A stretch of DNA of 64,000 nucleotides from contig CM053162.1 of the NCBI GenBank assembly GCA_028571685.1, positions 67,444,351 through 67,508,350 of the forward strand. The letters run 5' to 3'. The notes below the pieces were generated by a model. That model had not been told where the DNA came from. It saw only the letters and a program-made list of their open reading frames with translations, and did no database searches. Position numbers and translations under genes: made by a program. Positions 14,984-62,821 of this stretch are shown piece by piece. The first letter of the stretch is position 1, and each line of letters begins with the position of its first letter. This DNA comes from Heterohyrax brucei. Its lineage: Eukaryota > Chordata > Mammalia > Hyracoidea > Procaviidae.

Positions 14984-15150
14984 CACACAACACAACACCC
15001 ACTGCTGTTGAGTTGATTCTGACTCATAGAGACCCTATAGGATAGAGTAGAACTGCTCCATAGAGTTTCCAAGGAGTGCCTGGTGGATTTGAACTGCCAA
15101 CCTTTTGGTTAGCAGGTGTAGCGCTTAACCACTATGCAACCAGTTTGCTT
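14984..15150 (-). mobile_element. AfroSINE
   Basis: CCCACTGCTGTTGAGTTGAT, CCCTATAGGATAGAGTAGAA, CAAGGAGTGCCTGGTGGATT, CCAACCTTTTGGTTAGCAGG and AACCACTATGCAACCAG. It is better preserved than its neighbour 12 bp away, so it probably arrived later, next to or in the tail of the first. Confidence 0.92.
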
Positions 15151-30684: not shown

Positions 30685-31245
30685 ATACAGGACTAACAAG
30701 TTGATGAACTCATCCTAGAAAAAGTGCTACACAGCTCACTGCTGAGTATCATTGCCGTCACCTTCAAAGTCCTCCCCTGGGGAAGCAATGCGCTGATGCC
30801 AGGGCCTCGGCCACTCTTCCCGGCGATTTAGGAACTCTTTTACAGGAATGGCCGTCACCTGAGCTGTCATAGTGTTACCTTTGATGCCCTGAATGTCATC
30901 AAAATGTCTTCCTTTCAATATTTCCTTTATCTTTAGGTCAAGAAAAGTCATTGGGGGCCAGATCAGGTGAGTGGGGAGGGTGTTCCAACACAGTTACTTG
31001 TTTACTGGCTAAAACATCCCTCACAGACAACAACACAGTTAAGTTCATGGACTTGCCACAGTGTTACTGTGGGCAATGACCATTCCAGAAAGAGTTCCAA
31101 AATTGCTCTGAAGGGTGGACTAGGTGCTGGTATCAGTATATATAGCTTCCCAAGAGGAGGACTTCGAAGGCAACTGTAGTGATATTCAGCAATGAGGTAT
31201 GTAACACTTACAACAACTAAGTTGGCGACCTTAATTGTCCTATGG
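30685..31245 (-). mobile_element. mariner-derived foldback element, copy 1
   Basis: About 560 bp with long inverted arms. The left arm has AACTCATCCTAGAAAAAGTG and CACCTTCAAAGTCCTCCC. The right arm, read backwards, repeats the same order (AAAGAGTTCCAAAATTGCTC, then GTAGTGATATTCAGCAATGA). The minus strand carries the mariner transposase C-terminus: FLDLKIKEILKGRHFDDI and a terminal RIASPGEDFEGDGND at 30736-30951. Only the last 70 or so codons exist, and the frame lacks the DDE/D catalytic core, so it cannot act alone. It splits the antisense L1, which resumes at about 31246. Confidence 0.85.
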
Positions 31246-34761: not shown

Positions 34762-35288
34762 CAAGAATTGAAAATTAGGTTCACAAACTCATCCTAGAAA
34801 AATTGCCACATATATTCCATTACTCAATATCACTACAATCACCTTTGAAGTACCTCCCTTGGGAAACTATGCACTGATGTCAGCATCTAGTCCACCCTTC
34901 AAAGCAATTTTAGAACTGTTTTTCTGGAATGGCCAGCAGAACTGTCATCATACTATTGTTGATGTCCTGAATGTCATCAAAATACCTTCCTTTCAATATG
35001 TCCTCTGTCTTTGTGTAAAGAAAAATGCCATTGGAGGCCAGTTCAGGTGGGCACAGAGTTTACTGGCTAAAATCTCCCTCACAAACAACTATGCAGTTAA
35101 GGTTATGAACTTCCAACCATACCACCATGCAAAATGGACATTCCAAAAAGAGTTCCAAAACTGCTTCAAAGGATGGACCAGGCACTAACATTGGTGCATA
35201 GCTTTGAAGATGACAGTAGTGATATTCAGCAATGAAGTGTGTAACACTTAGAATAGTTAAGTTCATGGACTTAATTGTTGGACTTCAT
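34762..35288 (-). mobile_element. mariner-derived foldback element, copy 2
   Basis: About 525 bp. The left arm has AAACTCATCCTAGAAAAATT, then CACCTTTGAAGTACCTCCCT. The right arm inverts this: GTTCCAAAACTGCTTCAAAG, GGATGGACCAGGCACTAACA, then AGTGATATTCAGCAATGAAG and GTGTAACACTTAGA. TA occurs just outside both ends (TA before CAAGAATTG; TA after GGACTTCA), as expected for mariner target duplication. Middle words AATGTCATCAAAATACCTTC match copies 1 and 3. It lies 27 bp from the 5' end of the antisense L1. Confidence 0.85.
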
Positions 35289-36057
35289 ATGTAATCAATT
35301 CACTTGTCTTTTTTTTGAGTCTTTGTTGTAAGATGGACCACAGGGTATGTCTGACTACTCAGCTATTTTGGCCCTGCCAGTTTGATTGTGTATTAAACAT
35401 CATCAGTGTTACTGTTGAAAAACTACCACAAAGCTGTACTCCAAAACAGTATGAACACTTATTGGAAAGATGGTATAAATACTCTGCTTTAGCTTTTCTG
35501 GTGCTAATGGCTAGACAAACTACAAAAAAAAAAAAAAGAAATCCTCAAAAAACCATATAAGACAGTATCAAAGAAGGGAAAAAAAAATTCTCCATAAAGT
35601 CTAGAATAAAATGACTCTAATCTGTAACTCTCAAACCCTCACAGATTGACGAGGATTCTAAATCTGTAGGACACCTGAAGATCATATTAAAAATTTTGGG
35701 ATATTACGTTCTATTTCCATCTTCCAAACCTCTCCCAAAAGAGCTTTTAAAAATTCAAATTTGAATTGTCAAGATAACCTCATTTCTTCTAATCTATGAA
35801 AGTTGTTTTGTTAATTACTTTATTAGAATTTGTTTACAAATTTTATTTTGTATACATTCTGTACGTTCCTTTTTTTGACAGTTAAACATGTGAACTTTAG
35901 GAATGAATATTAACTTGAGACCAAGAAAATGATACTTTGGATAACTAAATACATCCTTTAATTGCATTCCATTTTTTCAAACCAAAATTGTTACTATGAA
36001 TCATCTCTTCCATCTTCTATTTCATTTTTCTTAGCATAACATAGTAAGATAAAAATA
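35289..36057. other. unassigned; includes A-rich tract
   Basis: The stretch 35300-35535 ends in a run of 14 A and could be an old retroposed sequence, but I cannot identify a source. An 81-codon plus-strand frame ends in that A-run. The rest is unique-looking. Confidence 0.3.
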
Positions 36058-36329: not shown

Positions 36330-36891
36330 TGAGGTCTGACAATTAGGCTCAAGAACTCATTCTAGGAAAAGTGCTACATATCTCATCACTGAGTGTCACA
36401 GTGGTTATCTTTGAAGTGTTCCCCTTGGGAAGCTATACACCAGCACTAGCACTTAGTTCACCCTTCAAAGCAATCTGGGGACTCTTTTTTTGGAATGGGC
36501 ATCAGAGCTGTCATCATATTACTCTTGATGTCCTTAGTGTCATCAAAATGTCTGCCTTTCAATATTTCTCTTATCTTCAGGTCAAGAAAAACATGACCGG
36601 GGGGCAGATCAGGTGAGTAGGGAGGGTGTTCCAATACATTTTTTTGTTTACTGGCTAAAAACTTCGTCACAGACAACTATGCAATTAAGTTCGTGAAATT
36701 TTCACCTTGCCACTGTGTGCAATGGCTATTCCAGAAAGAGGTCCAAAACTGTTTTCTAGGGTGGACTAGGCACTGGCATGGGTGCATAGCTTCCCCAGGG
36801 AAGGACTTTGAAGGTGACTGTAGTGATATTCAACAATGAGGTATATAGCACCTAAAACATCTAAGATTGTGGACTTCATTGTCAGACCTCA
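36330..36891 (-). mobile_element. mariner-derived foldback element, copy 3 (best preserved ends)
   Basis: 562 bp with ends TGAGGTCTGACAATTAGG and, inverted, TGAGGTCTGACAATGAAG. The right end is followed by TA. The inverted arms cover about 170 bp each (36330-36505 and 36718-36891). On the minus strand, 36458-36676 encodes VLEHPPYSPDLPPGHVFLDL and KIREILKGRHFDD, the mariner SPDLAP block. The catalytic Asp expected shortly after SPDLAP is not present in the GHVFLD stretch at its usual place. A DD34D-type mariner relative is therefore the source, but this is a non-autonomous derivative. Confidence 0.9.
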
Positions 36892-39805: not shown

Positions 39806-40940
39806 ATTAATTTTAAAACTCTCTCAAATCTAATCTTCTTTCTGACTTTTATCCTTTTGTTTCAACTTCGTTGTCTCCCGTGTTGGAAACCCAAGAGGTG
39901 GACTTTAAAAATTTTATAGAGAATCACATGATAGTAAATAGATCTTCTTAAACCTTAGCTGGTCACTCTGGAATGCAGATATAACATGACATAACAACTT
40001 AAAAGAAAGGCTTATTATAATAGGATGTCAAATCTTTATGTTAACATACAGTAGTAATTTTTAATTCATTCATCCTCCCATTTATTTATTGTTTCTTATG
40101 ATTCTCAAGCTTTGTAAAAACTTCTTCCACATCATCATTCCTAAGCTACCGAAAATGTTACAGAAGTCATGTAGTCACAAAAGGAGTTCTACAAAGAAAT
40201 TATAGATGGGTAAATAAAGAATATTGGATTTTAAATGTTACTTTGGGCAAACTTTGAATGAGGTAGATGTATAATTGGGATGAAAATAAATATATAATGG
40301 CATGAAAAATTCCCACAATTTATAGCACTTGGCTGAAGGCAACACATACTATCATCTAATGATACAAAAAAGTTAATTTACATAAAATAGGATGGACTTT
40401 ATTTTCTCTGTTGAATCCATTTCTTGTCCTTATCTAACTAATACTGCGTACAATCACTTTTCTACTAATAATCCCAAGTACTATGCCATTCTTGAATCAC
40501 TAAGTACGTATATCATTATATTCTCATTGTAATACTGACAGCAAATTTTCTGATGACCTGCTGTAATTTGTCTAAAAAATTTAACTCTTGCTTTGAACAT
40601 ATCAACCAACAAATTTTTTCCCAAATTAAAGTTTTCCCTAATTAGGTATTATCAGGCTATACTTATCAGTATTATGAAATGTAGATCATCACTTGTAGTT
40701 AAAAATAATTACAAAATTAATTATGATTCTAATCACCTAGTAAAATATCTTCCATACGTTGTAGGATATTCCAACATTTTATCACCTGGAACCATCTATA
40801 AACAATAGACTGTTCATGCTGCAATACTATCCCCTTGGATATAATAAAGGACAGTTATTTCATTATAAAGGACTTTACTATTTTATACTGTCAGCATTAT
40901 TGTGGAATAATTATGTTTACTTTCATCACAAATGATGAGT
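39806..40940. other. no gene or recognisable repeat
   Basis: About 1.1 kb of AT-rich DNA with no supportable feature. Confidence 0.45.
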
Positions 40941-40944
40941 ATTT

Positions 40945-41225
40945 GTAGATTTTGAAGGCTATGATTAATGATGTCTGCTTATGCAAAAATTCTCTTCTAG
41001 ATTGTATGCTTTGTTTCGCTGAGAGAACATTTCTCAGACTAGTATAGCTATTCTTTTCCCTTTTCTTTTTTACAAGGTCCATGGTTAGAAAATACAGATT
41101 TTGTTAATGATTCAACAAAATTATCTTAGGAACAAATTTTGAATGCATATGAATGGTCTATGATTATACTGATAAACAACATTCGAAGTAGTTCTACAAT
41201 TTCCCTTGCAAATTTAATGTAAGTC
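40945..41225 (+). repeat. left arm of unexplained inverted repeat
   Basis: The segment 41070-41144 (TACAAGGTCCATGGTTAGAA, TTTTGTTAATGATTCAACAA) recurs inverted at 41846-41922 with about 4 mismatches and an indel over about 76 nt. Outside this core, similarity continues but is weaker: GTATGCTTT and GACTAGTATA toward the left, and ATGAATGGTCTATGATTA toward the right. On the minus strand the core ends in an ATG that opens MDLVKKKREKNSYTSLRNVL, a frame of 61 codons. No family I know fits. It could be two opposed copies of an old element, or one foldback element about 1.1 kb long. Confidence 0.75.
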
Positions 41226-41789
41226 ATTTTCCCCCAGATGCTTTCCCTTTAAAATTAAGCTGCAATATAAAATTCTTTTTTTAAGTCTGAGGGAAGTTAA
41301 ATGATCCTGAAATAATTCTTAGCAAATTATGCACTGTAGTTTGATAAGAAATATATGTGAACACAATGGCTGAACAATACGGATTATAGACTATTTTTAT
41401 AAAGACACAGTGTTGGTACTTTGAAGTGCTCTAAGGCATTTTGAACTAAGTTTTCAGAAAAGGTCTACTTGGTTACTAGATAAACAGATAACTCTTTGGT
41501 AATTAGCATATCAATGTTCTGTACACAGAGAGATGATAGCAGTGTATGTAAATACGTTCTTCCTATCAAACCACAATTTAATCGACACTCATATAAAGGC
41601 AGCAGATTTTAGTGATTAAATGTGATACATAACCTCTCCCCTGTAGTCTTCTTCTGAGTTGTACACTTGTCTAAAAATACAGACTGGGTGCTAGTACCAC
41701 AGCCAACAAACTAAGCAGATTTTCCTCTGCTTTCAGCACTGTCTAGGATTGGCTTTGAGCCACGAAGGATAACAATTTTTATGTTCGGC

Positions 41790-42050
41790 AAGTTTTTTAG
41801 CTACAAACTACTCTATTATTTGGTAATCATAGATTACTCACAGGGATTCAAAAATTTGTTTCTAAGGTAATTTTGTTGAATCATTAACAAAATCTGTGTT
41901 TGCTAACCATGGACCTTGTAAAGAAGACTAGTTATACTAGTCGGAGAAGTGCTCTCCCCACAGAGAAAGCATACAACACAGAAACCAAACTCGTTGTCCT
42001 GTTTGGCTCATTTTGGTGGCAAACACTTCTGGATAGCTTCAATGACAAAC
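41790..42050 (-). repeat. right arm of unexplained inverted repeat
   Basis: Inverted partner of 40.95-41.23 kb. The core is 41846-41922 (TTTTGTTGAATCATTAACAA, GCTAACCATGGACCTTGTAA). The plus strand reads ATG into MDLVKKTSYTSRRSALPTEK, so both arms share the start M-D-L-V-K-K and a S-Y-T-S motif before they diverge. The inner spacer between the cores is about 700 bp and shows no clear symmetry. Confidence 0.75.
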
Positions 42051-42175
42051 AAAATTGCTGAAAAAATATCAGAGAATTATAGACTCATTTGGGATCCTGG
42101 TGAAACCGATTAGCATAAGAGTGGGAAACAAAGTCCCCAGGACCATGCTACTGTCGGGACCACAAGAGTGTTGTC

Positions 42176-42682
42176 TTGTCTTCTAGCGCTACCATAACGT
42201 AAGTGTCACACCTGGATGGCTTTAACAAAGAGGAATTTATTCCCTCACAATTTAGGAGCCTAGAAGTCCAAATTCAGGAGGCTGGCTCCAGGGAAAGGCT
42301 TTCTTTCTCTGTTATCTCTGAGGGAAGGTCCCTGGCCTCAATCTTTCCCTTTCCCAGGAACTTCTCAACACAGGGAGCACAGATCCAATTGATGTACTCC
42401 CCTTCTGATTCTGCATTTTGGTGGCAGAAGAGGCCCCATGTCTCTGCTGGCTTTCCTCTTTCATACCTCAAAAGAGACTGATTCAAGACACAACCTAATC
42501 TCAGAGACCAAAACCTGCATCATGAACATTACACCCTCTAATCCTGACTCTTTAAAATTGTAGGAGTAGGGTTTATAAATTACTACAGATGGAAAAATGG
42601 TGGAGATTCACCCTACACCGAGAATCACGGCCCACTCAAACCGATACACATTTTTGGGGGATACAGTTCAATCTATAAGAAA
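42176..42682 (-). mobile_element. MaLR-type LTR fossil, apparently end to end
   Basis: Antisense solo LTR. TGTCTTCTAGCGCTACCATA starts it. In order come TGGATGGCTTTAACAAAGAG, AGCCTAGAAGTCCAAATTCA, GGCTGGCTCCAGGGAAAGGC, GGGAAGGTCCCTGGCCTCAA, CATACCTCAAAAGAGACTGA, and GGGGGATACAGTTCAATC closes it. About 505 bp long, no internal region, diverged from its sisters at 24.5, 45.4 and 54 kb. A non-functional relic. Confidence 0.85.
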
Positions 42683-60979: not shown

Positions 60980-62821
60980 ATTCTGAATTTGAAACATCAG
61001 AAGAGAAAATAGATAAATGAGAACTACTACTTTTAAGAATCAAACACTTTTGCTCATGCAAAGACTTTATTAACAGAATTAAAAGACCACCAACAAAATG
61101 GGAAAAAATATTTGGCAACTATATGTCAGACCAATACCTAATCTCCATAATCTGTAAGGTACTACAAAATATCAATCAAAAAAAGATAAATCATCCAAAT
61201 AGGTGATGGGCAAAGGAGATGAACAGACACGTCTCTGAAGAGGAGATCCAGGCAGCCAAAAAACACATGTGGACATGCTCACAATCATTAGCTATTAAAG
61301 AAATTCAAATCAAAACTACAATGAGATACCATCTCATCCCAACAAGGTTGGCCAGAATCCAAAAAATGCAAAACAAAAAATGCTGCACAGGCTGTGGAGC
61401 AATTGGAATGCTCCTACACTGTTGGTGGGATTGCAAAATAGTGCAACCTCTTTGGAAAGCAATCTGGCGCATCCTTAAAAAGCTGGAATTAGATATACGA
61501 TTTGACCCAGTAATTCCACTGCTTGGACTATATCCTACAGAATCAAGGACATTCACACCAGCTGGCACATGCACATGAATGTTTATTGCAGCACAGTCCA
61601 CAATAGCGAAAAGATGGGATCAACCCAGATGCCCAACAACAGAGGAATGGATAGGTAAACCGTGACATATACTCAATGGAACATTATGCGACGATAACAA
61701 CGAGTTTAAGACACATCTCATAACCTGGTTTCAGTTGCAGAACATTATGCTGAGTGAAAGTAGTCAGTGACCAAAGGACAGATATTGTATAAGACTTCTA
61801 TGACAAGAACTTAAAAACAGACTCATGCCTAGAAGAAAAGACTCTTTGATGGCTGCAAAGGTGGGGAGGAAGGGAGGGTGAGGGGCCGAGGGTTTGGATT
61901 AGTTGATAGAAATTTGGTTGGGTGTAATCTGTGACAGCATACCTTAGAAAGAAGATCAATATTAACTGGACGTCAACACAACGTGATTACTTCTCCCATC
62001 TTAACCCAATATTGCAAGGATAGAGTATCTGGAGTCGGGGGCCAGGGACCATGTTCTCAGGGGAAATCGAGGCCAAATTGGCACAACTAGTATTTTGCTA
62101 AGAGAGTGTTCTGCACCCTACATTGGTGAGTGGCGTGTCTTAAAAGCTGTCAAACTGCCACCTGAGGGTACAGCAAACGGTCCCAACTCAGCAAGAATGG
62201 ATGATCACCAATAACCAAAATGACACAGGGGAAAGAGAACCCAGCAGACAGAGAGACCCACGTGAGTGGGTGACTACATTGACTTGTGACTGGAAATACC
62301 GGATGGTACCCAGCCATCACCAGTGATAGCCACAATAGAGCTCACAAAGTTGAGTCTCGCTGGCAACATAAGAATAAAAAAGCGTGCACCCTGAGATCTC
62401 CACTAAAAGACCGCAATTTGTGGTTCAGCTGCCTCAGAGTAACCCTGGGAGCATGGCCCCTGGCCCTGACACTGCCCTTATCCATAAAGCATAATGGAGG
62501 TCAACTCTTCGGACAGGAGTGGATTGGACTTGGTGACGGAGAGTGACCATACCATGTGTGCACTTTATGGTTCTATGCATCCATAGGATGTCATCTTGCT
62601 GGCCTCTTACTAGAGGTGGGGGAGTAGGTGGAGAGGAGAGGATAGGAGATTGTTGGGACAATAAGACATATATGGAGCAGAGAGGAAGAGTGTGCTGTCA
62701 CCAGGCAGGGAGAGCAGTGGGAGCTGCATACAGGTGGCCGTGCAAATTTATACGGGAATGTACATTTTTGCTGAATCATAATAAAAATAATAAATAAAAT
62801 AAATAAAAAATTCTGAATTTG
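60980..62821 (+). mobile_element. L1, 1.8 kb, with perfect 12-bp target duplication
   Basis: ATTCTGAATTTG lies at both edges (60980-60991 and 62810-62821), so the element is 60992-62809. It holds the ORF2 C-terminus: 61219-61578 reads [58 protein letters not shown] and FDPVIPLLGLYPTESR. That frame ends early at a TGA in GCACATGAATG, short of the usual end. A long 3' UTR of about 1.2 kb follows, with GGATTAGTTGATAGAAATTT, CTTCTCCCATCTTAACCCAA, GAGCTCACAAAGTTGAGTCT, a purine tract at 62612-62700 and GGGAATGTACATTTTTGC, then an AATAAAATAAATAAAAAA tail. It is the best preserved L1 here and a key to the shorter 3' UTR fragments. Confidence 0.95.

Follow-up and report, generated by a model that had tools for sequence, protein, structure and literature searches.

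A probable old local inverted duplication of single-copy DNA in the genome of Heterohyrax brucei

Layout and extent of the inverted repeat

The window, a 64,000-base stretch of Heterohyrax brucei DNA, contains two related arms in inverted orientation around a spacer (Table 1). The inverted repeat claimed in the first-pass annotation of this DNA is real: it reaches a local score of 174, whereas the best of 500 dinucleotide shuffles scores 37. Global alignment of the arms gives 24 mismatches in 159 aligned bases and 3 indels, one of which is 12 bases long and located in a pyrimidine-rich tract; MAFFT aligns them with 25 of 159 bases differing. When gaps are counted the arms are 79% identical.

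Table 1. Components of the inverted repeat, in window coordinates
Feature	Position	Strand	Remarks
Left arm	40995-41166	+	continuous similarity from 41002; matches also at 40995-40998
Right arm	41824-41983	-	matches left arm when read on the minus strand
Spacer	41167-41823	.	657 bases
77-nt ungapped least-diverged segment, left arm	41064-41140	+	94% complementary to 41851-41927; near the core of the first-pass annotation
Right-arm partner of the 77-nt segment	41851-41927	-	94% complementary to 41064-41140
30-base run identical between arms	41094-41123	+	includes small hairpin
Right-arm partner of the 30-base identical run	41868-41897	-	contig positions 67486218-67486247

The repeat had been given an extent of 40945-42050. 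These limits are too wide, since similarity outside the arm ends is at shuffle level: homology beyond the outer ends scores 14 (shuffle mean 16.5) and beyond the inner ends 18.5 (shuffle mean 19.7; 300 shuffles in each case). No inverted similarity exceeding that of shuffles was found between the two sides of the spacer. Homology is thus limited to the two arms.

With the outer end set at 41002, the homology closes at its two ends with identical stretches of 11 and 10 bases. These ends are sharp and lie in unique sequence, as judged for the spacer against the genome and for the left outer flank against the window only. The flanks of both arms have TTCT in common, 3 bases past the outer exact run, and at the inner end the next base past the homology differs between the arms; at both ends any microhomology signal would be eroded, and no clear microhomology common to the arm flanks was found. 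The least-diverged core had been said to end at a CCATGG in both arms. That motif occurs at 41079-41084 and 41907-41912, and identity passes through it, covering 41069-41088.

Neighbouring repeats

The window is otherwise rich in repeats. Copies of a ~130-base SINE, which resemble the afrotherian SINE, are dense, occurring at 14998-15143 and many other places; this would fit the afrotherian host presumed at first pass. SINE-like pairs are ~70-82% mutually identical, as measured on the best 80 of 179 repeat matches and with SINE assignment by eye. A repeat of ~530 bases has three direct copies (30706-31239, 34769-35289 and 36353-36883) that are 70-76% alike. The first of these has an inverted repetition of its own (30722-30851 and 31080-31209, 75%), whose arms find 9 and 11 further matches in a sample of 264 kb, counting the other copies in the window. 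A dispersed repeat at 42183-42480 begins ~200 bases to the right of the inverted pair.

Pfam was searched with the 10 longest of the 46 stop-free fragments of at least 90 aa in the window, and gave one match, below its cut-off: a 123-aa stop-free stretch at 61207-61575 weakly resembles EHMT1-2_CRR (16.9 bits, cut-off 27.5). This match, which overlaps a repeat at 61287-62031, is probably due to chance.

Coding and RNA potential

As had been noted at first pass, a frame beginning MDLVKK opens outward from CCATGG in both arms and is followed by a common SYTS motif. This shared frame is broken by the 12-nt gap and then shifted by a 1-nt indel, and its substitutions are mostly amino-acid changing (the alignment was read by eye, with no computed ratio). 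Pfam found nothing up to E 1 in the two outward frames. A protein-coding reading was rejected on the frame-shifting indel and the lack of a Pfam match; the shared frame is only shared DNA.

Selection on a long hairpin RNA, or on a paired regulatory element with the core constrained in both arms, is very unlikely. The divergence of the core is low, and in a transcript the two arms would form a long stem with each other (1001-nt RNA fold, MFE -320.3 kcal/mol, a value without a shuffle control at that length). The arms of any inverted repeat fold on each other, however, and a stem selected on one transcript should favour transitions that keep G-U pairing. Transitions compatible with G-U pairing number 10 and 8 on the two possible transcripts, with no strand bias; the selection on a stem that had been listed among the options is therefore not seen in the substitutions. 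Rfam also gave no match at gathering score over the window. At a relaxed threshold it gave nine matches in 40900-42100, all far below cut-off and taken as chance, among them NPPA-AS1_2 (17.4 bits, cut-off 60) and RAGATH-15 (12 bits, cut-off 199.5) in the right arm.

The small hairpin in the 30-base run has a 9-bp stem and an 8-nt loop (fold of 41090-41125). The 36-base folds of the two arms have z scores of -1.93 and -1.82, and 7 and 9 of 200 shuffles, respectively, fold as well. For the cores of 87-88 bases, folding does not surpass that of shuffles on either strand (162, 119, 49 and 89 of 200 do as well), which counts against selection on the stem, and on this result the small hairpin was also rejected as an account of the core. 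We give very little credence to a single-locus hairpin gene or paired regulatory element of unique sequence, in which the inverted pair would be conserved in proboscideans or afrotherians and the core selected in both arms. The tests made gave no sign of function.

Divergence along the arms

The core at 41070-41144 had been described as differing between the arms by about four bases and one indel, and the count is 4 substitutions and 1 indel, that is, 5 difference events in 76 columns; outside it there are 22 events in 86 columns. The flanks are indeed related and more diverged, the outer side outside the core having a relatedness score of its own of 28 (shuffle maximum 19.5). Fisher's test on this contrast gives p = 0.0013, which is valid only with boundaries picked after looking.

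The strength of the step was evaluated with floating boundaries, by scanning every interval of at least 20 columns and permuting the differences in order. The interval of lowest divergence is 41069-41123, with 2 events in 55 columns. Equal or better contrast appeared in 145 of 2000 permutations (161 of 2000 for substitutions alone), and 306 of 5000 permutations reached an identical run of 30 bases. As biological controls we used BLAST alignments (E <= 1e-15) within 264 kb of the same genome (20 stretches and the window), taken as pieces of 130-162 columns with 12-22% events, with near-duplicates dropped by 50-base bins. A step at least as strong was found in 37 of 447 controls, or 8 of 124 with a single alignment kept for each query place, and an identical run of at least 30 bases in 26 of 447, or 4 of 124 when so thinned; the same repeat families recur among the controls, which are not independent of one another. 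The BLAST alignment of the arm pair itself scores 5.67, slightly below the 6.23 used as threshold, so that on an equal footing the number of controls reaching the step would be no smaller.

The first-pass annotation had argued that uniform decay of two old copies could not give such a step, a claim left unsupported by these permutations and controls. Since both permutations and other repeat pairs of the same genome reach it, the step between core and flanks is weak, at most suggestive, and not clearly sharper than chance gives.

A related possibility, to which we assign a minor but appreciable share of the probability, is an inverted duplication followed by real homogenisation, in which template switching or gene conversion between the arms would later have reset ~55-77 bases; it overlaps the explanation preferred below. 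The low count of events in 41069-41123 speaks for such a patch, and the 30 identical bases surround a small internal palindrome. There are precedents in yeast: template switching is described as homogenising the arms of short inverted repeats (PMC8604942), and inverted repeats with homology down to 75% and long spacers can still interact in single-stranded DNA (PMC10164571). Against it, the same contrast is reached by permutations and control alignments at the frequencies given above, so the patch is not required. Gene conversion between the arms, one of the origins originally proposed for the step, is accordingly possible in patchwise form, but it is not needed.

Copy number of the arms and spacer

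The assembly from which the window comes (3.49 Gb, 62 contigs; the window is on C23, of 74.7 Mb) was searched with the arms and the spacer. The search skips very common words and scores the best candidates only, and it could miss copies that have diverged strongly. At E <= 0.001 the left arm (query 41000-41180) had no match besides itself and its partner, and the same held for the right arm with E raised to 10. With up to 3 mismatches allowed, the 30-base run occurs genome-wide at these two places only. The 657-base spacer gave a single match, to itself (E <= 0.001). The same search did recover the arm partner at 79% identity. As a positive control, the dispersed repeat at 42183-42480 gave 5733 first-look candidates; the best 40 were scored and every one matched, 39 of these being other copies, at 72-82% identity. 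Further copies of the arms are therefore not detectable in the 3.49-Gb assembly, an absence that is not proven given the candidate filter of the search. An exact 28-base piece of the core had no match in viral contigs and none in prokaryote contigs, as expected for mammalian DNA.

Inverted pairs (score at least 60 bits, spacer below 3 kb) were also counted in the 264-kb sample, which is drawn from contigs C1, C2 and C3 and the window and includes 946 N. There are 34 such pairs. The arms of 33 match elsewhere in the sample, and the present pair is the sole private one.

That an old interspersed repeat inserted here twice, independently and in opposite orientations, is on these counts hardly probable. 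The other 33 of the 34 inverted pairs do behave like repeat families, in that their arms match elsewhere, but no third copy of the present arms was detected in the genome, and it is this, with the privacy of the pair in the sample, that makes two dispersed-repeat insertions unlikely. An interspersed repeat family was rejected on the lack of detected dispersed copies of the arms, with the positive control working. The statement at first pass that no known family fits is borne out: none was found.

That the pair is what is left of a very rare foldback or long-TIR DNA transposon, with the arms as its terminal inverted repeats, is unlikely, if less so than paired insertions. The overall layout, with inverted arms of ~160 bases each enclosing ~650 bases, would suit it. 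Since neither arms nor spacer have other detectable copies in 3.49 Gb, however, such an element would have to be the single surviving copy, and the two outward frames matched no protein family. Between the outer flanks, no exact direct repeat exceeds a single match of 6 bases (40949 and 42010), which lies off the ends; no target-site duplication was found at the outer ends, where an old one could be eroded. The foldback element suggested earlier is disfavoured by the uniqueness of the pair and by the lack of any flanking direct repeat longer than 6 bases.

Origin and age of the pair

We consider it probable that the pair arose when unique, non-repetitive DNA was duplicated once, long ago, locally and in inverted orientation, and that the copies then diverged in a roughly neutral way. 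Two inverted copies are present at one locus and no others were detected, the arrangement that such a duplication leaves. Because a stretch of ~160 bases is present twice here and was found nowhere else in the genome, the pair has the look of an accident of copying long ago, and not of a mobile element.

We infer the following course. During replication or repair a polymerase would have switched to the nearby opposite strand and copied ~160 bases there before coming back, so that a reversed copy was left behind. Both copies would then have diverged roughly neutrally, and chance scatter of the differences, possibly with one small patch of switching or conversion from arm to arm, could have left the 30-base identical run. 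The small hairpin of the core might have helped template switching.

A template switch or fold-back repair would explain the uniqueness, the size and the sharp ends of the pair. Template switching in replication is probably the source of the duplication; since ~160 bases moved by ~660 would be large for short-range switching, fold-back break repair or another route of inverted duplication is equally open.

The K80 divergence of the arms is 0.18 (95% bootstrap 0.11-0.27), with 18 transitions and 7 transversions. With 2.2e-9 or 1.2e-9 substitutions per site and year, the duplication would be about 41 or about 75 million years old, as reckoned from this single genome. The 79% identity of the arms lies within the ~70-82% of the SINE pairs, and so points to a comparable age for the arms and the window's SINE copies.

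Significance and comparison with known systems

If this reading is right, the locus offers a clean example of unique mammalian sequence duplicated locally in inverted form. Duplications of this kind are easily hidden among mobile-element pairs, to judge by the repeat-like arms of 33 of the 34 inverted pairs sampled, and one outgroup could date and orient this one. In the literature on elephant, inverted repeats and unique sequence, no title among the best-ranked matches described such a pair.

Short-range switch events in great apes reportedly involve mostly tens of bases, and by that measure the size and distance here are probably larger than in great-ape template switches. Among great-ape patterns of short-range template switching, the majority give rise to single inverted repeats (PMC7954356). 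There as here, a nearby segment is copied as its reverse complement to give a single inverted repeat, whereas the present event is inferred from one genome, with arms already ~15% diverged. Human inverted duplications formed by a fold-back mechanism are large and can include many genes (PMC3907307); these too are inverted copies of local DNA, but only ~160 bases are involved here. Long inverted repeats of C. elegans, again inverted copies in one locus, are nearly perfect and are inferred to be actively maintained (PMC1803023), whereas the arms here have diverged and their core shows no significant excess of similarity. The same layout is seen in inverted pairs of SINEs, LINEs and other interspersed repeats; unlike the other 33 of 34 sampled pairs, the present one has arms for which no family could be detected in the genome.
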